Shown here piece after piece: positions 10,660 to 44,998 of a stretch of 64,000 nt of DNA (positions within the stretch are counted from its first letter, which is position 1; each line of letters starts with the position of its first letter). This DNA comes from Xanthostigma xanthostigma (Eukaryota; Arthropoda; Insecta; Raphidioptera; Raphidiidae): contig OY754469.1 in assembly GCA_963575645.1 (NCBI GenBank), positions 13,596,001-13,660,000 of the forward strand, given 5' to 3'. A program made the position numbers and the translations under genes. Under the pieces are notes generated by a model. That model saw nothing but the letters and a program-made list of their open reading frames with translations. It searched no databases and was not told the origin of the DNA.

Positions 10660-11290
10660 CGGGACCCTATTACTAAGCCTCCGCCGTCTGTCCGTCTGTC
10701 TGTCAGCGGGATGTATCTCATAAACCGTAATAAGCAGAGAGTTGAAATGTTGACAGTGTGTATTTCTATTGCCACTACTACAACAAATAATGAAAAATCA
10801 AGATGGCGAATTTCAAAATGGCCGCCATGAAAATTAGAAAAAAATCTGATTAAGCTCATATTAAGCATGCGTGTTCGATCCTATTAACAATATACAAAAA
10901 TGAAAGAAACAAGATGGCGAATTTCAAAATGGCCCCCATGCAAATTAGAAAAAAATCTTCGATTAAGCTGATATTGAGCATGAGTGTTCAGTCCTATTAA
11001 CAATATACGAAAATGACAGAAAAAGATGGTGAATTTCAAAATGGCCGCCTTACAAATTAAAACAAAAATATCCAATTAAGCTGATATTGAGCATGCGTGT
11101 ACAGTCCTATTAAAATTACACGAGAATGAAAAAACCAAGACAGCAAATTTAAAAATGGCCATATTGAAAATTTAAATAAAAATCCGATTTTGCTGCTATT
11201 GGCAATGCGTGTAAAAAGTACATTGTGTTATATTTTATAGGTTGGTACGGAACCATTCGTGTGCGAGTCCGACTCGCACTTGACAGGTTT
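10660..11290 (+). repeat. GGTTCCGTA-family repeat with internal 104-122 bp tandem units
   Basis: It ends with CGAGTCCGACTCGCACTTG, the family 3-prime end, after TTGGTACGGAACC. The interior has four tandem units whose AGATGGCGAATTTCAAAATG starts lie at 10801, 10912, 11034 and 11138, the last degenerate. A (GTCT)n/(GTCC)n tract lies near 10690. Overlapping frames on both strands come from the repeat and are not called genes. Confidence 0.7.
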
Positions 11291-18177: not shown

Positions 18178-18307
18178 ACCTTTTAGGCTATACACCCATG
18201 GATACTTTTTCTTAGTGACCTTTAAACTATAAAATAAAACCATTTTTGATCAATTTCGATTAATTTTCGAAAACCAAATCCCAGAAGGTTTGTGCGGGTC
18301 CTTTGAC
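18178..18307 (-). repeat. GGACCCCGC-family MITE, solo right end
   Basis: The end GGTTTGTGCGGGTCCTTT and the segment GTGACCTTTAAACTATAAAA match the right ends of the copies near 38340-38455 and 44690-44998. Only about 130 bp of the family is present here. Confidence 0.65.
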
Positions 18308-26529: not shown

Positions 26530-26830
26530 CTGGATCAGTTCCGGATCAGAGTACAGTACTCCATCCTTTGATCTGGTCATCTGATCAGTTCCTGATCAGA
26601 GTACAGTACTCCATCCTTTGATCTGGTCATCTGATCAGTTCCTGATCAGAGTACAGTACTCCATCCTTTGATCTGGTCATCTGATCAGTTCCTGATCAGA
26701 GTATAGTACCCCACCCCTTGATTTGGTGATTTGATCAGAAACTGATCAGTGTTCAGTACTCTTTCCCTTGATCCGGCTATCTGATCAGTTTCTGATCAGA
26801 GTACAGTATTCTATTCGTTAATCCGAAACT
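26530..26830 (+). repeat. 50-bp tandem array (GATCAG-rich)
   Basis: Units starting CTGATCAGTT occur at 26581, 26631 and 26681 with identical spacing, followed by two diverged units to about 26815. Each unit contains CTGATCAG-TT-CCTGATCAG, so the unit itself has inverted symmetry. It lies just inside the left TIR. Unrelated unit-to-unit spacers are absent, so it is not CRISPR-like. Confidence 0.85.
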
Positions 26831-27639: not shown

Positions 27640-27890
27640 ATTATCCAAAAATTAATCCTGATCCTTGAAACGGATCTGGTATGGATCTTTCAGCCGGATT
27701 GGGCATGGATTTTTGAAACGGATCCGGTATGGATCGTTTAGTTGGGTCCGGCATGGATCTTTGAAACGGATCCGGTATGGATCTTCTAGTTGGATCCGGC
27801 ATGGATCTTTGAAACAGATCCAGTATCGATCTTTTAGTCGGATCCGGCATGGATCTTTAAGACGGATCCGACACGGATCTTTTTAATGGA
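27640..27890 (+). repeat. 48-bp tandem array (GGATCC-rich)
   Basis: Units begin GAAACGGATCCGGTATGGAT at 27667, 27715, 27763 and 27811 (variants), an exact 48-bp spacing, with more diverged units after. Because 48 is divisible by three, open frames run on both strands; these are repeat artefacts. The array mirrors the left array across the gene and shares GGATC words with it. Confidence 0.85.
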
Positions 27891-29385: not shown

Positions 29386-30498
29386 CTTTTTTGACGTGAT
29401 AACGTCTTATAAATTGATGAATCACGTCAATATAAAAAGATAAAACACCGGCTGCATGCACGAAAAAGTGTAACGTTCCTAACGTTCCGCCTGACCCTGT
29501 GCGTGCAAGCGAGAGCGCAGTATGCTTCGGCCCAAGTTTGACAGCTACTAAAATTTAGGTTATGTATTACGGAATACGTTATCACGTAAAACTATCGTCC
29601 GTATAAACCGACTTTACAGACAACCAATTTTTTTTTAACTGTCATTATGAAATCCTTTTTAACCTAACTAAATCCTTAATTTCTATCCTTTTTTTAAACT
29701 TATTTGTAACAATGATATAAATGCATTAGAAACCATACATGCATAGATCTCAGACAATTGAATAAATTCTTTTATTTTAAAGTTTAAAAGTCATAAATAA
29801 AAGCCAATAAAATCTATATTAAAAAAAAATTGGTTGTCTGTAAAGTCGGTTTACGGACGATAGTTTTACGTGATAACGTATTCCGTAATACATAACCTAA
29901 ACCTCCCAAAATTTGGTTTCAATCCGCTTATCCTTGGTGTCGGAATGATAAGAAATGTCAAAAGTGACGTTTGCAACTTACAAAGTATTATGTTCTAATA
30001 ATAATTAGTTATTCCAATACTTAACTTAGAAGGCGTTGCATTTCACAATATACTAATGTCAAAAAATTGAATTAAACATTAGAAATGCAGCCGTTTTCAT
30101 GTTAAGACAAGACATACGTTTGTTTCTAATTTCCATGTACGGCAAACAAAGACAACCGACCGCGTCGCGCCATGCATTAGACAACATTGCATTTATACAG
30201 CTATTTTTCTATATAAATTTGTATAAAATATTTTTCTATATAAATTTGTATAAAAAAACTGTTTAGGCAAATTCTGTTATACGAAATCTATGTAAAATGT
30301 TCTCCTCTTTCGTTTAAGACTGGTTTCAAACCGATCTGATTTAAATTGAGCGAGAAATTAGCAAAAAGCACGCACAGGGTCAGGCGGAACGTTACGCGTT
30401 ATGCGTTATGCGTTACGCGTTACGAACGTTACGTTACACTTTTTCGTACATGCAGCCGGTGTTTTATCAATTTATAAGACGTTATCACGTCAAAAAAA
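29386..30498. mobile_element. Inverted dimer of the GACGTGATAACGTC repeat family
   Basis: The outer ends are inverted copies: TTGACGTGATAACGTCTTAT, then CACCGGCTGCATGCACGAAA, with complements at 30430-30491. An inner inverted pair (about 29560-29635 and 29829-29905) contains TTGGTTGTCTGTAAAGTCGG and TACGTGATAACGTATTCCG. The single copy at 49948-50208 has the outer and inner parts in one 260-bp unit. This locus is therefore best read as two units head to head with AT-rich DNA between. Part of the right arm has GCGTTATGCGTTACGCGTTA repeats at 30395-30436. Confidence 0.65.
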
Positions 30499-30781
30499 GT
30501 TTAAAGGTCACTAAGAGAAAGTGTCCATGGACGCATAACCTAAAAAACAATAGATTTTTAGCTACAGTTATGTTTAGCGAGATTTTAGATATAGAGATAT
30601 CCATTGATTTCACATGTTACGTGTTCAACGTTTGTGCGTTTTTTTAGAAATAGAAAAATAGTCGAAAACTAGGTAATGTTGGAAGGTGTCACCCTGTATA
30701 AAATATAATGTCATATTCGGATTCAGCGCACTCGAAAACATAGCGCTTAGGATTTTTTAAGACTGTGAATTCAATGGATAC
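30499..30781 (+). repeat. GGACCCCGC-family MITE, left part, split by BEL
   Basis: The sequence from TTTAAAGGTCACTAAGAGAA to AATTCAATGGATAC follows the copies at 40925 and 44276. It continues after the BEL element at 38296-38455. Its own left end with GGACCCCGCAC is missing, probably lost at the junction with the 29386-30498 element. Confidence 0.75.
30777..30781. other. BEL target-site duplication, left copy (GATAC)
   Basis: GATAC here and at 38296-38300 flank the BEL element exactly at its TG..CA LTR ends. Five bases is the usual BEL/Pao duplication. Confidence 0.92.
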
Positions 30782-31063
30782 TGTTTAGGATTAACAATTG
30801 AAATTTTTATGTATAATGGATTCGTGAAAGGAATGTTTGGATAATTAGTTTTTAATTGAAGCGAACACTTTTAACTTTTTTGAGATTGTATTTTGATCGA
30901 TAACTGAATTGGAATTGAATTAATGAATTGATTTTTAACACAAAAATGTATAAAAATGGTTATATAATAAATTAAAGACAATTTCATAATAAACAAAAAT
31001 TAAATGTATAGGGTGAAACAAAAAAAATGAATATTAACTAAAATACGTGGTGTTTCCTGAACA
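30782..31063 (-). repeat. BEL element 3-prime LTR (282 bp)
   Basis: On the minus strand it begins TGTTCAGGAAACACC and ends CCTAAACA, giving TG..CA ends. By eye it is identical to the other LTR once the insertion there is removed. Identity of LTRs indicates a very recent insertion. Confidence 0.92.
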
Positions 31064-31197: not shown

Positions 31198-34100
31198 TTA
31201 TTTTGAATTGTTGTCACTTGGCTCACTGATGAGAAGTCTGCAGAGCTTCACGATAGGTCGTTTCATTGTTGATGTAGCTGTTTTTACAGTTACAACTCGA
31301 ACTCGATCGTCGCTTCCTGGGTGAATTTCTGTAACGCGACCAAGCAACCATTTTGAAGGAGGCTGAAGTTCATTTTTAATTAATACAAGTTCGTTTACAG
31401 TTATGTTCGATTCAGGATGTTTCCATTTTTGTCGACCTTGGAGAGTGTGTAAATACTCACTAGACCAACGGTTCCATATGTGTTGGTGAAGTTTACAGAC
31501 TAACTGCCATCGAGACAGACGATTTTCTTCAATATTTAGCAGTGACGGCTCCGGTACAACAGCAATAGGTGTTCCTATTAAAAAATGTCCCGGAGTGAGA
31601 GCAGTAAAATCGTTTGGGTCGTCATGTAGCGGACCTAAAGGTCTTGAGTTTAGACTTGCTTCTGTTAGAGCTAAAAACGTAGCTAATTCTTCAAATGTAA
31701 GTGTGTGACTTCCAATGACACGTTTAAGGTGATGTTTGAAGGCCTTTACTCCTGCTTCCCAGAGTCCTCCAAAGTGGGGGGCAGCGGGAGGAAGAAAATG
31801 CCAGGTAGTGCCATCAGACGCGAGTTGAGAGACAAGATTCTTATCTTGAGATACAGCTCGAAACGCTTGTCGAAGTTCAACATCAGCTCCAACGAAGTTC
31901 GTTCCATTGTCACTATATAGGTCTGATGGAATACCTCGACGAGCTGTGAAGCGCTGAAAGGCTGCTATGAATCCTGCTGACGTATAGTCACTGACGAGTT
32001 CAAGATGAACAGCACGCACGGCAAGACATACAAAAACCGCGACGTATGCCTTTTGTGACTTATGTCCTCTTCCCTTTGATGTGCGTACAAACAACGGTCC
32101 TGCATAGTCCACGCCGGTATGAAGGAATGGTCGCGACGGAGATATTCGAGATGCGCAAAGATCTCCCATGATTTGTGAACTGCCCTTAGCGCGCTCACGA
32201 ATGCAGCGAACACAGTGATGGATGTGCGATTTGACAAGTTGTCTGCAGCCAAGAATCCAGTAATTCTGTCGAATAATCCTGATTGTGAGCTGCGGACCTC
32301 CGTGAAGAGTACTAGCATGAGCGTGGTCAACAATGAGATTACTGACTGGATGTCGTGGAAGTACACATGGATGTTTCTCATTGTATGCTAGAAGTGAATG
32401 ACGTAACCGCCCGCCAACACGAATTAATCCAGAATCGTCTATAAATGGATTTAGTTTCGCTAAAACACTTCCTACTGGAATTGGTTTCTTGAGTTGCAAA
32501 GCTTGAATTTCCTTTTCAAAGGCTTTTTGTTGCACGTATTTGATCCAAAAATTACGCGCATTTCGGATTTCGTTTCCAGACAATCCAGATAATGAGCGCT
32601 GTTTTGCTTTGACACGTGCATTGTATATGAAACGTAAACAATAAGCTGTTACTCTTAAAAATCGAGACCATGAAGAAAATTTAAGCGGTAAGTCCCATTC
32701 TTCTTCATTTTCTTGCACTAACTGAGCGTGGTGAATTCGTGTCTCGATGTCAGTGTGAAGTGGAAGATCACTCGGGGATGGCGGCCAAAATGACGAAGTC
32801 TGGCTAAGCCACGAAGGCCCACTCCACCACAGTGAATGATCAATCAACTTATCTGCCGTCATTCCACGTGATGCACAGTCAGCAGAGTTGTCGGACGTCG
32901 GAACATGACGCCACGTTGCGTCAGGTAAACGTGTTTGTATGTCTGCGACACGATTTGCTACAAAGGTTTGCCAGCGCGATGAGTGAGTCTTGATCCAAGC
33001 AAGTGTGACCGTAGAATCGGTCCATGCAAACGTCGGAATTGTCGCAAAATTCATCGCATTTACTACGTATTCTATTAGACGGGTGAGAAGCTGAGCTGCG
33101 CAGAGTTCAAGACGTGGCAAACTTATGGTTTTTACAGGCGCAACCTTAGACTTGGCGATTAACAAACGAACCTGAATATTGTCGTCGCGTATCACACGCA
33201 AATATACAGCTGCTGCATAGGCACGAGTGGATGCGTCTGCAAATCCGTGGAGTTCACATGGTAGGCCGTCCAGTTGACCGGTATATCGAGGTACAGTAAT
33301 TTCTTGTATTTGTGGTAATGCATTGCAGTAGTCATGCCACCTTTGTTGTATTTCACTAGGAATCGGTTCGTCCCAGTCGATCTTGAGCAGCCATAATTCT
33401 TGCATGATAATTTTTGCTATGATGACGACTGGTGTTAACCATCCCAATGGATCGAACAGTTTTGCTGTAACGGAGAGTATAGAACGCTTGGTCAGAGTAG
33501 CTTCACAATTTGAGATTGAGACATAAAATTTAAATAAATCTTTGTGCGGGTCCCATGCTAAACCTAAAACGTGTATACTCTCATCTTCTTGAATAGAATG
33601 AACATCATTCATGGCACAGTGACTTTTTGGTATGTCTTCAAGAACTTTCGAATTATTACTCGCCCATTTTCGTAACGTAAAACCACCTGATTTCAATAAA
33701 CTGTTGAGATCTTGACATATGCGTTTAGCTTCAGGAATGCTGGATGCGCCAGAGAGTAAATCGTCAACATATAAGTCATTTTCGAGTACGTCTGATGCGA
33801 CAGGATATTGCTTTCGTTCATCTGAGGCAAGTTGCTTTAGTACACGCAGAGCTAGATACGGTGCCGAGGAAGTGCCGTAAGTTACGGTTTGTAATTTAAA
33901 TGCTTTTAATTCGTGATCTTGTGATGAGCGCCATAATATTCTTTGATAATTGGTATCGTTGACATTCATTCTAATTTGGCGGTACATTTTTTCAATATCA
34001 GCGACGATTGCAATGGGATGCTTTCGCCAACGAAGAATGACATTTACAAGATCCGGTAAAAGTCTTGGACCAGGCAACAGGTGATCATTCAATGACGTAC

Positions 34101-36423
34101 CGTTTGAAGTTAAACTTGATGCATTGAAGACGACTCGAAGACGTGTGGTTGAACTTGTTTCTCGAAATACTGCGTGATGAGGTAAGTATACTGCTTGCGA
34201 ATTTGGATCTGAACCAAGACTTTGGGCACATTGCATATGGCCTAATTGCTGGTACTCCTCCATGAACTGAACGTACGACTGAAAATGTGCTGGATTTTTC
34301 ATCAAACGTGACTCTTGTTTGTAAAACAAAAGTGTTGCTTTGGCAAGAGAATCTCCAATGTTGATTGGTAGACCTTGTTTGAAGGGCAGTCGGACAGTGT
34401 AACGCCCGTCCAACTCCCTGACATGCGTAGTTTTAAAATGTTCTTCACACTGCTGTTCTTGCTCGGTTAAAAGTCGCACCTTGGGCAGCTCTTCGTTTTC
34501 CCAAAACTTTCTAAGTGTTTTGTCCAATTGATTGACACAAACACTGTGATGTACTGCATAACTGGATGAGTGTGTAGCATCTGAAGAGGAAACTGATCCC
34601 GATAGAATCCAACCAAAAATTGTTCGTTGTGCAAGTGGACCTCCGTCTAAACTACTGTAAACTCCATCAAGCAGAATGAGACCGTAGATGTCAGCCCCGA
34701 TAAGCATGTCTATTGTTTTTGTGCTACTAGGTTCTGGATCAGCGAATTTTAGACCTTGTAAATAAGGCCAATTGTTCCAGTTAATTGTTGCTTTTGGTGC
34801 GTACGACGTTAAGGTTGGCAGCACGAAAGCATCAAATGGCAAGATTGGATCATTTGCGTGACATGGTTTGAGCACAAGTGATACTGCTGAACTCACGTTG
34901 AATGAGGAATGGCCTTCTAGACCGGAGATTTTTGCTCGAATCTTCTGTTGTGAAGCGTGTAAAGTCTTCACAACTGATTTTGTAACAAACGATGTCTCAG
35001 ATCCTGGATCAATTAGAGCTCGAACTTGAACACTTCGACCGGCGGCGGTTCGCAGTTCGACATTAGCAGTTGCAAGTAATATTGTCTTTTGATTGTCTCC
35101 ATTGGTTCGAGATGCAAAATGACAAGCGGCTGTGACTGGTGAGTCAGAAGTAGCTGCTGATGTCTCTGACTTGGCAACGTTGGTAGAATTTCCCGGTGTC
35201 GAATAATGTAGGAGCGAATGATGGTTGCTGTTGCAGTGTTTACATCTTCCTTGGCTTGTACACTGTTGAACCATATGACCAGTGCGCAGACAATTATAGC
35301 AGCAATGATTGTTTTTAACGAAATCTTTTCGCTGAGCTAGCTGAATTTTTCGAAACGTTGGGCAACGTGCTAACAAATGACTCTGGTTGCAAAATGTACA
35401 ATCTTTTGAAACATTTTCAGATGCGTGATGACTTCTCAAATTTGGAACGTGAGCTTCTCGTGTTCTTTTCGAAGATGTCGAATTCAAAGCAGAAGCGGCA
35501 GTGGTTTGAATTTGCGAAGTTGACGCAGTTTGAATTGCTTCCAAAGCACGAGCTCGATTTTCTAAAAATTCATTTATTTCAGCATATGATGGAAATTCGT
35601 TTTTTCCACCCAGCGATAGCTCCCACTCTTTGTGAGAAGCTGCGTCGAGTTTTTGAACTGTTAGAAAAACCATTATATCATCCCATGATTCAACAGATCG
35701 ATTAAGGTTTTTCAACGCTGCAAGCGATTCATTTGTTTTGTCTCGCAACTGTCGAAGTTCAACTGCTGACTCCGATGAAACAAATGGAACATTCATAAGC
35801 GACTGTAGGTGAGACATAACTAAAACACGCTTATTGTTGTATCGCGTTTTGAGTGTGTTCCAGGCTGAATTATAATTGGCTTCAGTGACGAGGACACTCT
35901 TGAGTAACTGGCTGGCTTCTCCATCTAGGTTGGTTTTCAAGTAATGAAAACGCTGAACATTTGTTAACGTGGCGTTGTCATGAATCAACGATTCGAAAAG
36001 ATCGCGAAAATTCTCCCATTCTAAATAATTACCGGAAAATTTTGGTATTTCAATTTTCGGTAGGCGTACTGAGAATTTCGGAGTTAAATTCTGATTTTCG
36101 TTTATTATTGGTGCGGCTGACTGATTTAGAGATTCGAAGTGATCGTAGAGAAATGTCAAAGCATCGAGATAAGCTTCTTCAGCCAACGTGTAATGCGAAT
36201 CTTTAAAATAAGGATCTTCTAAATCTTCCTCGGAGGTTTCGCGGTTGAGTTGATTATTTAATGTTTGGCATTCCCTCCAAAGGTTTTGTAGTAATTCTAT
36301 TCGACCTTGAGTTGCGCCACGAGTCATATTCGCTCTTCCTTTCTTCTTAAAATTAGGAATTAATCTGTTGATTCCATCGATTACTCGTTGTTGATCTTCT
36401 AATACGTTTACATCTAACGGCAT
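31198..36423 (-). CDS. BEL/Pao gag-pol polyprotein, 1741 aa
   Basis: One uninterrupted frame. The gag-like part has LPKIEIPKFSGNYLEW (about residue 122). Zinc knuckles follow near residues 343-400, including CYNCLRTGHMVQQC (CCHC). An aspartic protease centre lies at LIDPGSETSFV (about 470, DPG in place of DTG). Reverse transcriptase has VADIEKMYRQI (about 807) and YVDDLL (about 884). RNase H has HGFADAST (about 1057) and WTDSTV. Integrase has an HHCC zinc site (HGGP...CVRC, about 1374-1400) and the catalytic triad GVDYAG, YSDNG and LWEAG (about 1438, 1504, 1555), with 50 residues between the last D and E. A C-terminal BEL-type domain (WLLGRV) follows. All catalytic residues are present and no frameshift or stop is seen, so the copy looks competent at protein level. 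The start at 36423 is the first ATG after the primer site. Confidence 0.95.
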   Translation of the reverse strand: MPLDVNVLEDQQRVIDGINRLIPNFKKKGRANMTRGATQGRIELLQNLWRECQTLNNQLNRETSEEDLEDPYFKDSHYTLAEEAYLDALTFLYDHFESLNQSAAPIINENQNLTPKFSVRLPKIEIPKFSGNYLEWENFRDLFESLIHDNATLTNVQRFHYLKTNLDGEASQLLKSVLVTEANYNSAWNTLKTRYNNKRVLVMSHLQSLMNVPFVSSESAVELRQLRDKTNESLAALKNLNRSVESWDDIMVFLTVQKLDAASHKEWELSLGGKNEFPSYAEINEFLENRARALEAIQTASTSQIQTTAASALNSTSSKRTREAHVPNLRSHHASENVSKDCTFCNQSHLLARCPTFRKIQLAQRKDFVKNNHCCYNCLRTGHMVQQCTSQGRCKHCNSNHHSLLHYSTPGNSTNVAKSETSAATSDSPVTAACHFASRTNGDNQKTILLATANVELRTAAGRSVQVRALIDPGSETSFVTKSVVKTLHASQQKIRAKISGLEGHSSFNVSSAVSLVLKPCHANDPILPFDAFVLPTLTSYAPKATINWNNWPYLQGLKFADPEPSSTKTIDMLIGADIYGLILLDGVYSSLDGGPLAQRTIFGWILSGSVSSSDATHSSSYAVHHSVCVNQLDKTLRKFWENEELPKVRLLTEQEQQCEEHFKTTHVRELDGRYTVRLPFKQGLPINIGDSLAKATLLFYKQESRLMKNPAHFQSYVQFMEEYQQLGHMQCAQSLGSDPNSQAVYLPHHAVFRETSSTTRLRVVFNASSLTSNGTSLNDHLLPGPRLLPDLVNVILRWRKHPIAIVADIEKMYRQIRMNVNDTNYQRILWRSSQDHELKAFKLQTVTYGTSSAPYLALRVLKQLASDERKQYPVASDVLENDLYVDDLLSGASSIPEAKRICQDLNSLLKSGGFTLRKWASNNSKVLEDIPKSHCAMNDVHSIQEDESIHVLGLAWDPHKDLFKFYVSISNCEATLTKRSILSVTAKLFDPLGWLTPVVIIAKIIMQELWLLKIDWDEPIPSEIQQRWHDYCNALPQIQEITVPRYTGQLDGLPCELHGFADASTRAYAAAVYLRVIRDDNIQVRLLIAKSKVAPVKTISLPRLELCAAQLLTRLIEYVVNAMNFATIPTFAWTDSTVTLAWIKTHSSRWQTFVANRVADIQTRLPDATWRHVPTSDNSADCASRGMTADKLIDHSLWWSGPSWLSQTSSFWPPSPSDLPLHTDIETRIHHAQLVQENEEEWDLPLKFSSWSRFLRVTAYCLRFIYNARVKAKQRSLSGLSGNEIRNARNFWIKYVQQKAFEKEIQALQLKKPIPVGSVLAKLNPFIDDSGLIRVGGRLRHSLLAYNEKHPCVLPRHPVSNLIVDHAHASTLHGGPQLTIRIIRQNYWILGCRQLVKSHIHHCVRCIRERAKGSSQIMGDLCASRISPSRPFLHTGVDYAGPLFVRTSKGRGHKSQKAYVAVFVCLAVRAVHLELVSDYTSAGFIAAFQRFTARRGIPSDLYSDNGTNFVGADVELRQAFRAVSQDKNLVSQLASDGTTWHFLPPAAPHFGGLWEAGVKAFKHHLKRVIGSHTLTFEELATFLALTEASLNSRPLGPLHDDPNDFTALTPGHFLIGTPIAVVPEPSLLNIEENRLSRWQLVCKLHQHIWNRWSSEYLHTLQGRQKWKHPESNITVNELVLIKNELQPPSKWLLGRVTEIHPGSDDRVRVVTVKTATSTMKRPIVKLCRLLISEPSDNNSK

Positions 36424-36534: not shown

Positions 36535-36740
36535 GAAAATGTTTAGGATTAACAATTGAAATTTTTATGTATAATGGATTCGTGAAAGGAATGTTTGGAT
36601 AATTATATACGAAATCAATCTGAAGAAATCCAATTGCAGTATAATTATTTCACTGAAATAGTGAAAGCATAATAATATTAAACGAATATTATCGTCATAA
36701 TATTTTTTTTTAGAAGGCTTATATATAAGAAAAATTTAAA

Positions 36741-36810
36741 TGTCACTGTCGGGACTTGAACCCGAAACAACCAATTTCGCGTTGGCTGAGTTGCATTACT
36801 CTACAGTGCC
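36741..36810 (-). other. tRNA-like module, unit 1
   Basis: The minus strand reads as in the module at 37820-37889. See that entry for the fold. Confidence 0.5.
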
Positions 36811-37125
36811 CACGACAGTTAATTCATGATTTCTCTTATATATAACACAATGCACCGCAGAATCCACTACCTGCGAGAGCTAATAATTTTAATAACAACA
36901 CTACAAGAGTGTTGACTTTCTCTAATTAGCCGGACATGCTGATGTAACTAATAAACAATGAGAAAGATTTAATAAATACTTGCAATATTATATACGAAAT
37001 CAATCTGAAGAAATCCAATTGCAGTATAATTATTTCACTGAAATAGTGAAAGCATAATAATATTAAACGAATATTATCGTCATAATATTTTTTTTTAGAA
37101 GGCTTATATATAAGAAAAATTTAAA

Positions 37126-37195
37126 TGTCACTGTCGGGACTTGAACCCGAAACAACCAATTTCGCGTTGGCTGAGTTGCATTACTCTACAGTGCC
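37126..37195 (-). other. tRNA-like module, unit 2
   Basis: An identical copy 385 bp from unit 1, on the minus strand. Confidence 0.5.
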
Positions 37196-37819
37196 CACGA
37201 CAGTTAATTCATGATTTCTCTTATATATAACACAATGCACCGCAGAATCCACTACCTGCGAGAGCTAATAATTTTAATAACAACACTACAAGAGTGTTGA
37301 CTTTCTCTAATTAGCCGGACATGCTGATGTAACTAATAAACAATGAGAAAGATTTAATAAATACTTGCAATATTATATACGAAATCAATCTGAAGAAATC
37401 CAATTGCAGTATAATTATTTCACTGAAATAGTGAAAGCATAATAATATTAAACGAATATTATCGTCATAATATTTTTTTTTAGAAGGCTTATATATAAGA
37501 AAAATTTAAATTTTTCTTATATATAAGCCTTCTAAAAAAAAATATTATGACGATAATATTCGTTTAATATTATTATGCTTTCACTATTTCAGTGAAATAA
37601 TTATACTGCAATTGGATTTCTTCAGATTGATTTCGTATATAATATTGCAAGTATTTATTAAATCTTTCTCATTGTTTATTAGTTACATCAGCATGTCCGG
37701 CTAATTAGAGAAAGTCAACACTCTTGTAGTGTTGTTATTAAAATTATTAGCTCTCGCAGGTAGTGGATTCTGCGGTGCATTGTGTTATATATAAGAGAAA
37801 TCATGAATTAACTGTCGTG

Positions 37820-37889
37820 GGCACTGTAGAGTAATGCAACTCAGCCAACGCGAAATTGGTTGTTTCGGGTTCAAGTCCCGACAGTGACA
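37820..37889 (+). other. tRNA-like module, inverted copy
   Basis: The 70 bases fold by eye as follows: acceptor GGCACTG with CAGTGAC (one G-A mismatch); D stem GAGT/ACTC with a short 6-base loop; anticodon stem GCCAA/TTGGT around loop CGCGAAA; 4-base variable region; T arm TCGGG-TTCAAGT-CCCGA (perfect); then A. The B box (GGTTCAAGTCC) is excellent. The D loop is too short, and position 33 is G rather than T, so it is unlikely to be a working tRNA. It could be an internal pol III promoter, as in SINEs. Confidence 0.5.
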
Positions 37890-38295
37890 TTTAAATTTTT
37901 CTTATATATAAGCCTTCTAAAAAAAAATATTATGACGATAATATTCGTTTAATATTATTATGCTTTCACTATTTCAGTGAAATAATTATACTGCAATTGG
38001 ATTTCTTCAGATTGATTTCGTATATAATATTGCAAGTATTTATTAAATCTTTCTCATTGTTTATTAGTTTGGATAATTAGTTTTTAATTGAAGCGAACAC
38101 TTTTAACTTTTTTGAGATTGTATTTTGATCGATAACTGAATTGGAATTGAATTAATGAATTGATTTTTAACACAAAAATGTATAAAAATGGTTATATAAT
38201 AAATTAAAGACAATTTCATAATAAACAAAAATTAAATGTATAGGGTGAAACAAAAAAAATGAATATTAACTAAAATACGTGGTGTTTCCTGAACA

Positions 38296-38455
38296 GATAC
38301 CTATATCTTAAATCTGTAGCTAAAAATCTATGGGTTTTTAGGCTATGCGTCCATGTACACTCTTCCTATGTGACTTTTAAACTATAAAATAAAACAATTT
38401 TCAATCAGTTGCACCGTAAACAAAATCCCAGATGGTTTGTGCGGGGTCCTTTCTT
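38296..38455 (+). repeat. GGACCCCGC-family MITE, right part after BEL
   Basis: Starting with the right-hand GATAC, it continues CTATATCTTAAATCTGTAGC and ends GGTTTGTGCGGGGTCCTTT. Joined to 30499-30781 it restores the family sequence seen at 44590-44765. Confidence 0.78.
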
Positions 38456-40924: not shown

Positions 40925-41165
40925 AAAGGACCCCGCACAAACCTTCTGGAATTTAGTTCTCGATTAAATTGATCGAAAATGATTGTATTTTATAGTTTAA
41001 AGGTCACTGAGAAACCAATAGATTTTTCGCTACAGATATGTTTAGCGAGATTTTTGATATAGGGATAGCCATTGAAGACACAAACGTGTTCCATGTTCAA
41101 ATTTGTGTCATTTTTTAGAAACACAAAAATAATAATCTTGGAAGATGTCACCTGTATAAAATAAT
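40925..41165 (+). repeat. GGACCCCGC-family MITE, left part
   Basis: It begins AAAGGACCCCGCACAAACCT and contains TATAGTTTAAAGGTCACTG and CAATAGATTTTTCGCTACAG. It ends in AATGTCATATTCGGATTCAG, as in the copies at 30499 and 44276. The right half is missing. Confidence 0.7.
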
Positions 41166-44162: not shown

Positions 44163-44275
44163 CTGTACAGCAGGGATGCACAACGCGGGCCACATGCGGC
44201 CCACTGTAGATGTGGGTGCGGCGGCTCGCCAGCTAACGCGAAAATGGGATGTTGACAGTTAAATACGCAATAAAG

Positions 44276-44998
44276 AACCCCGCACAAATCTTATGGGATT
44301 TGATTCTCGATTAAATTGATCGAAAATTTTTTTATTTTACAGCTTAAAGGTCACTAAGAAAAAATTTCCATGGGCGCATACCCTAAAAAGCGCAATAGAT
44401 TTTTAGCTACAGATATGTTTTGCGAGATTTTAGATATAGGGATATCCATTGAATTCACAAATATGTTCCATGTTCAACTTTTGTGCTTTTTTTAGAAATA
44501 GAAAAATAGTCGAAAACTAGGTTATGTTGGAAGGTGTCACCCTGTATAAAATAATAATGTCATATTCGGATTTAGCGCATTTGAAAACATAGCGTTTAGG
44601 ATTTTTTAAGACAGAGAATTCAATGGATATCCCTACCTATAAATAAAATCTCGCTAAACACATCTGTAGCTAAAAATCTATGGGTTTTTAGGCTATGCGC
44701 CGATGAACACTTTTTCGTAGTGACCTTTAAACTATAAAATAAAACAATTTTTAATCAATTGAACCTAGAACAAACATATTTCTAGAGCTTAGGATTTTTT
44801 GAGATTGTGAATTCAATGAATGTCCCTATATCTAAAATCTCGCTAAACATATCTGTACTTAAAAATCTATTGGTTTTTATGCTAGGCGCCTATGGATACT
44901 TTTTCATAGTAACCTTTAAACTATAAAATAAAACAATTTTCGATCAATTTAGCCGACAAGGACAACTAAATCCCATAAGGATTGTGCGGGGTCCTAGG
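44276..44998. repeat. GGACCCCGC-family MITE, most complete copy, with duplicated right arm
   Basis: The left end is AGAACCCCGCACAAATCTTA and the right end GATTGTGCGGGGTCCT. The arms are long inverted repeats containing TTTAAAGGTCACTAAGAAAA and TTTTAGCTACAGATATGTTT. The right-arm sequence occurs twice in tandem (about 44590-44765 and 44790-44996). It lies inside the hAT element, so it is younger than that element. Confidence 0.75.

Follow-up and report, generated by a model that had tools for sequence, protein, structure and literature searches.

A palindromic insert of 385-bp tRNA-bearing units in a BEL/Pao LTR: a probable retrotransposition product resembling twin-primed insertions

How Penelope-like elements and animal retrozymes form their tandem and inverted copies is an unsettled question. 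In rotifers, some Penelope copies combine direct and inverted repeats and are flanked by target duplications of 8, 9 or 10 bp, others have no duplication, and head-to-head is the most frequent order reported; the mechanism put forward for them is self-priming on an antisense template, a sense template not being excluded (PMC3846280). For animal retrozymes, a circular RNA template and a Penelope or LINE helper have been proposed (PMC7229834). A purified Penelope-like protein cuts and extends both DNA strands and starts inside its own RNA, and initiation in that assay has no need for target homology (PMC11167929). Inversions of L1 arise by twin priming, in which both target ends prime on one RNA, with microhomology at the ends, and the two cDNAs anneal. 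Inverted L1 copies without 5' microhomology amount to 28 of 605, and 17 inverted insertions recovered in a HeLa assay carry duplications of 10-17 bp (PMC2912911).

The locus described here lies in a window of 64 kb, the whole stretch of DNA that was analysed. It is an insert of 1461 bp (36606-38066) built solely from identical 385-bp tRNA-like units, the coordinates of which are collected in Table 1. The starts of the three direct pieces are spaced by 385 and 385 bp, units 1 and 2 have the same base at 385 of 385 positions, and the third piece repeats the beginning of the unit without a mismatch, the direct arm measuring 902 nt (2 x 385 + 132). At 37507/37508 this arm meets, with a spacer of 0 nt, an inverted arm of 559 nt (37508-38066), the exact reverse complement of 36949-37507. 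Two and a third units point in one direction, one and a half in the opposite one, and a 3' tail is absent from both ends of the insert.

The evidence for insertion of this unit is one locus. No second copy is found in the rest of the window (nothing to E 10 with masked nhmmer; best blastn E 0.11), and no relative was found among viral contigs (4 exact patterns, 0 matches), prokaryote genome contigs (1 degenerate and 1 exact pattern, 0 matches) or plasmids (distant blastn), collections that hardly cover animals and may lack entries from the window's own genome, so that absence from them means little. Membership of the unit in a repeated family is not established, the viral, prokaryote and plasmid searches and the window having given no second copy. 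The window also contains two GATC-rich tandem arrays about 0.9 kb apart, at 26533-26808 (50 bp, 5.5 copies) and 27660-27883 (48 bp, 4.7 copies), and a 113-bp tandem repeat of 3.3 copies at 10789-11160.

Table 1. Features of the insert and of its host element (positions are those of the window)
Feature	Positions	Strand	Basis
Direct unit 1, 385 bp	36606..36990	- (tRNA sense on - strand)	repeat comparison
Direct unit 2, 385/385 same as unit 1	36991..37375	-	repeat comparison
Partial third direct unit, 132 nt, exact prefix, stops at palindrome centre	37376..37507	-	repeat comparison
Inverted partial unit, 132 nt	37508..37639	+	559-nt exact reverse complement; division into pieces by arithmetic
Inverted full unit, 385 nt	37640..38024	+	559-nt reverse complement; division by arithmetic
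Inverted partial unit, 42 nt, right end of insert	38025..38066	+	559-nt reverse complement; division by arithmetic
ATTTAAAT, 8-bp unit palindrome at inversion junction	37504..37511	.	sequence; centre 3 nt past tRNA 3' end
tRNA-like cloverleaf, B box GGTTCAAGTCC	36741..36810	-	ARAGORN, RF00005
tRNA-like cloverleaf	37126..37195	-	ARAGORN, RF00005
tRNA-like cloverleaf	37820..37889	+	ARAGORN, RF00005
T5 run, Pol III terminator-like, 7-11 nt past tRNA 3' end	37896..37900	+	sequence; same spot in each full unit
CTTATATATAAG, 12-bp palindromic TATA-like motif, recurs in each unit	36718..36729	.	sequence
Target duplication GTTTGGATAATTA, left copy; last 4 nt ATTA also fit unit	36593..36605	.	
Target duplication GTTTGGATAATTA, right copy; first 3 nt GTT also fit unit	38067..38079	.	
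Empty site, GTTTGGATAATTA unbroken in intact LTR, single copy	30835..30847	.	
Intact LTR, 282 bp; 3' LTR by ORF direction	30782..31063	-	LTR alignment
Interrupted LTR (5' LTR) holding the insert	36540..38295	-	LTR alignment
BEL/Pao gag-pol ORF, 1741 aa, no internal stops	31198..36423	-	ORF list and domain scan
BEL target duplication GATAC	left 30777..30781, right 38296-38300	.	sequence

The host of the insert is a 282-bp LTR of an element on the minus strand. This element belongs to BEL/Pao by the Pfam matches of its 1741-aa ORF (three pieces scanned apart) to DUF1759, Peptidase_A17 (the Pao peptidase), Integrase_H2C2 and DUF5641, together with matches to RVT_1 (29.3 bits, slightly below the cut-off of 29.6) and rve (25.8 bits, below the cut-off of 32.6). 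With the insert and one target copy disregarded, its LTRs (30782-31063, and 36540-36605 joined to 38080-38295), which read TG...CA, agree at 282 of 282 bases, and a 5-bp GATAC duplication flanks the whole element. The target GTTTGGATAATTA stands on both sides of the insert and uninterrupted in the intact LTR; given microhomologies of 4 and 3 nt at the junctions, the true target duplication could be 6 to 13 bp. Because only one of two identical LTRs holds the insert, the insertion is later than the integration of the BEL element. The earlier note had described a palindromic array of identical 385-bp tRNA-like units, lying between 13-bp duplications and younger than an already very young retrotransposon; the array and its duplications are confirmed to the base, and the relative age is borne out by the LTRs.

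The same flanks bear on the reading of the insert as an assembly artefact. Perfect palindromes without a spacer, such as this one, are a known type of sequencing and assembly error. A fold-back error, however, would re-enter the left flank, whereas the right flank is not the reverse complement of the left one and resumes the LTR collinearly after duplicating a stretch that is unbroken in the intact LTR. A plain fold-back is for this reason unlikely, and an artefact in general is hardly credible. A dispersed repeat occurs in both orientations at 38286-38420, 44636-44770 and 44825-44959 and also at about 18181-18304, 30498-30567, 40925-41007 and 44268-44414; it has matches on either side of the BEL insertion, and two of its copies form a 189-bp tandem.

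The unit has a GC content of 31.4%. Each of the three complete units holds a cloverleaf tRNA (RF00005, 42.5 bits, E 3.1e-7 each), and ARAGORN (bacterial code) predicts three tRNAs across the 64 kb, every one within the insert; the tRNA-like fold that the earlier note had seen in each full unit is thus found by both programs. The tRNA is 70 nt long and forms a full cloverleaf with one acceptor mismatch. Its nominal anticodon is CGA, without the U33 usual in tRNAs. The B box GGTTCAAGTCC agrees with the Pol III consensus; the D loop, by contrast, is short, and the A box is a poor one. With Rfam at the gathering threshold, the whole window gave no tRNA, though 42.5 bits exceed the gathering score of 29, a result tentatively attributed to the faster filters of that scan. 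Scans of this kind can miss odd tRNAs (36741-36810 and its equivalents).

The T5 run behind the tRNA (unit position 257) is the sole run of at least four T on the tRNA-sense strand of the unit. Pol III is expected to terminate there, yielding a transcript of about 80 nt, so that a multimer RNA needs another polymerase, read-through or a circle as its source. This terminator also bears on whether the insert is an ordinary tRNA-derived SINE, multimerised and inverted by chance. Such SINEs consist of a tRNA head with a Pol III B box, a body and a 3' tail, with no internal terminator. The unit shares their tRNA-like part and good B box, but it has no tail, it carries a T5 run expected to stop Pol III just behind the tRNA, and it forms a head-to-tail multimer with seamless 385-nt joints, all of which make this origin very improbable.

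In folding, 0 of 100 shuffles are as good as the unit in either sense (z -5.4 in the tRNA sense, -4.8 in the other), and random GC-matched pieces of the window fold equally well in 11 of 300 and 38 of 300 cases, respectively, so that overall folding does not distinguish the unit. Imperfect inverted arms of 33 nt (76%; 36719-36751 with 36813-36845) enclose the tRNA. An outer 7-bp stem, ACTGTCG/CGACAGT, competes with the T stem of the cloverleaf (judged by eye), and the RNA could therefore switch between the cloverleaf and a long hairpin.

Self-cleaving motifs were sought in two ways. A search of 1701 bases against Rfam up to E 5 matched no hammerhead or other ribozyme family. Two overlapping rows of the same clan excluded, it returned 17 rows, three for tRNA and 14 for models of microRNA or bacterial RNA that stay under their gathering scores; a MIR1888 row (39.3 bits) is rejected, being the palindrome itself. 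On the circular unit, both strands, the hammerhead core scan gave CTGAAGA (of the form CTGANGA, + strand unit position 15) and the near-core CTGATGT (position 334), neither of which has a helix II adjoining GAAA (pairing by eye). The absence of a hammerhead core from the unit, noticed before, is borne out by both.

These results weigh on a second origin, in which the insert is a repeats-only copy of an autonomous Penelope-like element and the 385-bp unit its pseudo-LTR. Rotifer Penelope copies do show two direct and one inverted repeat, short duplications and a palindromic junction, and CTTATATATAAG parallels their TATA box readable both ways (PMC3846280). The insert, on the other hand, consists of the unit only and has no Penelope coding remnants, and no hammerhead is matched to E 5, yet minimal hammerheads are reported to be conserved in Penelope-like elements (PMC7761336). 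A tRNA within a pseudo-LTR is unmentioned in the portions of the Penelope literature covered. This derivation seems quite improbable. The lack of reverse transcriptase and GIY-YIG coding is an argument against autonomy of the element, whereas mobilisation by an autonomous one would be compatible with it.

All three junctions of the insert bear microhomology. On the left, the last four target bases (ATTA) equal the unit bases that precede the first inserted base; on the right, the first three (GTT) are likewise matched by the unit; and the arms turn at the palindrome ATTTAAAT. Per 385 positions, suitable points number 6 on the left (at least 4 nt), 9 on the right (at least 3 nt) and 6 for palindrome centres (at least 8 bp), which gives a joint chance of 5.7e-6 for independent uniform draws, with thresholds picked after seeing the data. 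Among the six palindromes of at least 8 bp in the unit, ATTTAAAT is the nearest to the predicted RNase Z site (a 1-in-6 match), and longer ones of 10 and 12 bp are not used at the inversion.

Junctions of this kind could also arise if tandem pieces of satellite or extrachromosomal circular DNA had been taken up into a staggered double-strand break through microhomology end joining, two of them being placed head to head at the palindrome. Polymerase-theta joining fits microhomologies of 3, 4 and 8 nt at the three junctions, and capture would suit identical head-to-tail units with no tail. It needs, however, two independent fragments that end in the same unit phase, and the clean 13-bp duplication requires a regular stagger, as made by retroelement endonucleases. 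DNA capture is possible but unlikely.

The uninterrupted target in the intact LTR, the 13-bp duplication, the microhomology at three junctions, the identical units and the lack of a tail speak for retrotransposition. The insert is probably the product of a small non-autonomous element, whose RNA would be a head-to-tail multimer or a circle of the 385-nt tRNA-bearing unit. From the anatomy, the unit identity, the empty site and the microhomology, all of which are read directly from the bases, we infer an RNA intermediate, its polarity and possible circularity, a helper and an order of steps. The helper, Penelope-like or LINE, would have supplied endonuclease and reverse transcriptase and cut the two strands of the LTR at points up to 13 nt apart. 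Both free 3' ends would have served as primers on RNA of one polarity, the tRNA sense, the left target end via ATTA with 902 nt copied and the right one via AAC with 559 nt copied, each cDNA extending beyond one unit length. The two same-polarity cDNAs would then have joined at the self-complementary ATTTAAAT, starting at the tRNA 3' end, and fill-in would have produced the spacerless palindrome and the target duplications.

The polarity is deduced from 3' overhangs that carry the duplicated bases, as in target-primed reverse transcription, with which both ends must have copied the same tRNA-sense RNA; 5' overhangs at the cuts would void this argument. If the RNA is repetitive or circular, both cDNAs cover the same sequence, and the joined product is a perfect palindrome. 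With an empty site known to the base, undecayed sequence and microhomology at its three junctions, the locus lends itself to a reading in which a single sense RNA templated both cDNAs; a head-to-head inversion then requires no antisense RNA. The earlier note had seen in the locus a special combination of features matching no named family. The anatomy that it described stands, but the palindrome needs no special element, twin priming on a repetitive or circular RNA being enough to explain it. The junction microhomology seen here contrasts with the dispensable target homology of the Penelope-like assay (PMC11167929), and this counts against the proposal. As for a helper gene, the 10 frames scanned besides the BEL pieces, out of 75 stop-to-stop frames of at least 75 aa in the window, gave no Pfam match.

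Annealing of two 12-nt tails at the palindrome is predicted at -5.1 to -6.4 kcal/mol (DNA parameters), and the best hairpin of a single tail at -1.0, with the palindrome unused. An unconstrained co-fold of two tails of 43-44 nt reaches -11.7 through pairs other than the end palindrome. Self-priming of one cDNA is less likely: if the 8-bp palindrome had to supply its own loop, a stem of 2 bp would remain (by eye), and the hairpin predicted for a single tail avoids it. Since cDNAs of the same polarity have no clean way of joining except at a palindrome, their shared end phase adds no separate support for a processed RNA end, on which just the choice among the six palindromes informs independently. 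With tails paired over 6 to 8 bases, their ends would lie at, or one base inside, the cleavage predicted by the usual rule for RNase Z.

The twin-primed element may tentatively be carried one step further, to a retrozyme-like animal RNA replicon in which a tRNA takes the place of the self-cleaving ribozyme, a reading that we regard as rather unlikely. RNase Z at the tRNA 3' end and RNase P at its 5' end, both part of the tRNA-maturing machinery of the host, would cut the multimers and leave RNA starting exactly where both cDNAs end. Twin priming would then place a copy of this leftover RNA, or of its circle, in the genome. That the inversion is centred 3 nt from where RNase Z should cut is suggestive only, being a 1-in-6 match. 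Should the unit turn out to form a family, tRNA processing might conceivably stand in for a ribozyme in the making of small RNA replicons.

Compared with described systems, the insertion appears to work like one of retrozyme or Penelope type, membership in either being not established, and the feature comparison supports the earlier choice of Penelope-like elements and animal retrozymes as nearest in form. Among the literature matches listed (titles and abstract openings, subscription papers being mostly outside), there is no tRNA-bearing retrozyme-like element, which does not prove that such an element is unpublished. Helenus elements (tRNA-bearing TRIMs) are likewise short non-coding retroelements with a tRNA-like sequence in their repeated part. 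They have, however, two LTRs with the tRNA, a PBS, a PPT and, in animals, 4-bp duplications, as against 13 bp and an inversion here (PMC10886601). Between repeats of the 385-bp unit there is no internal region of another sequence, and Helenus is set aside on duplication length (13 bp, or at least 6 bp allowing for microhomology, against 4 bp).

Animal retrozymes, which are non-LTR, form low-GC tandem units of 150-450 bp, a range that includes the present unit with its low GC; like the insert they have no LTR, they are described without PBS and PPT, and their duplications, when present, exceed 4 bp. They are defined by a type I hammerhead, in place of which the unit has a tRNA-like cloverleaf, and the main text of the paper describing them does not use the word "inverted", whereas half of the present insert is inverted without a spacer (PMC7229834). 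Unlike Penelope-like elements, the insert has no coding sequence, no hammerhead and a tRNA inside its unit. Both combine direct and inverted terminal repeats with a short target duplication, and Pen2a of Adineta vaga has two direct repeats and an adjacent inverted one with a 9-bp duplication; rotifer Penelope elements also have palindromes at their inversions and a TATA box readable in both directions (PMC3846280). Twin-primed (5'-inverted) L1 copies derive, as is proposed for the insert, from two cDNAs at both target ends and have 10-17 bp duplications (PMC2912911), with microhomology at the ends and the inversion, as seen here in 4 nt, 3 nt and the 8-bp palindrome. The present insert differs from them in having no poly(A) and in that its arms share repeated sequence and hence form a perfect palindrome, and twin priming would yield in it the very head-to-head order that is commonest in rotifer Penelope (PMC3846280).
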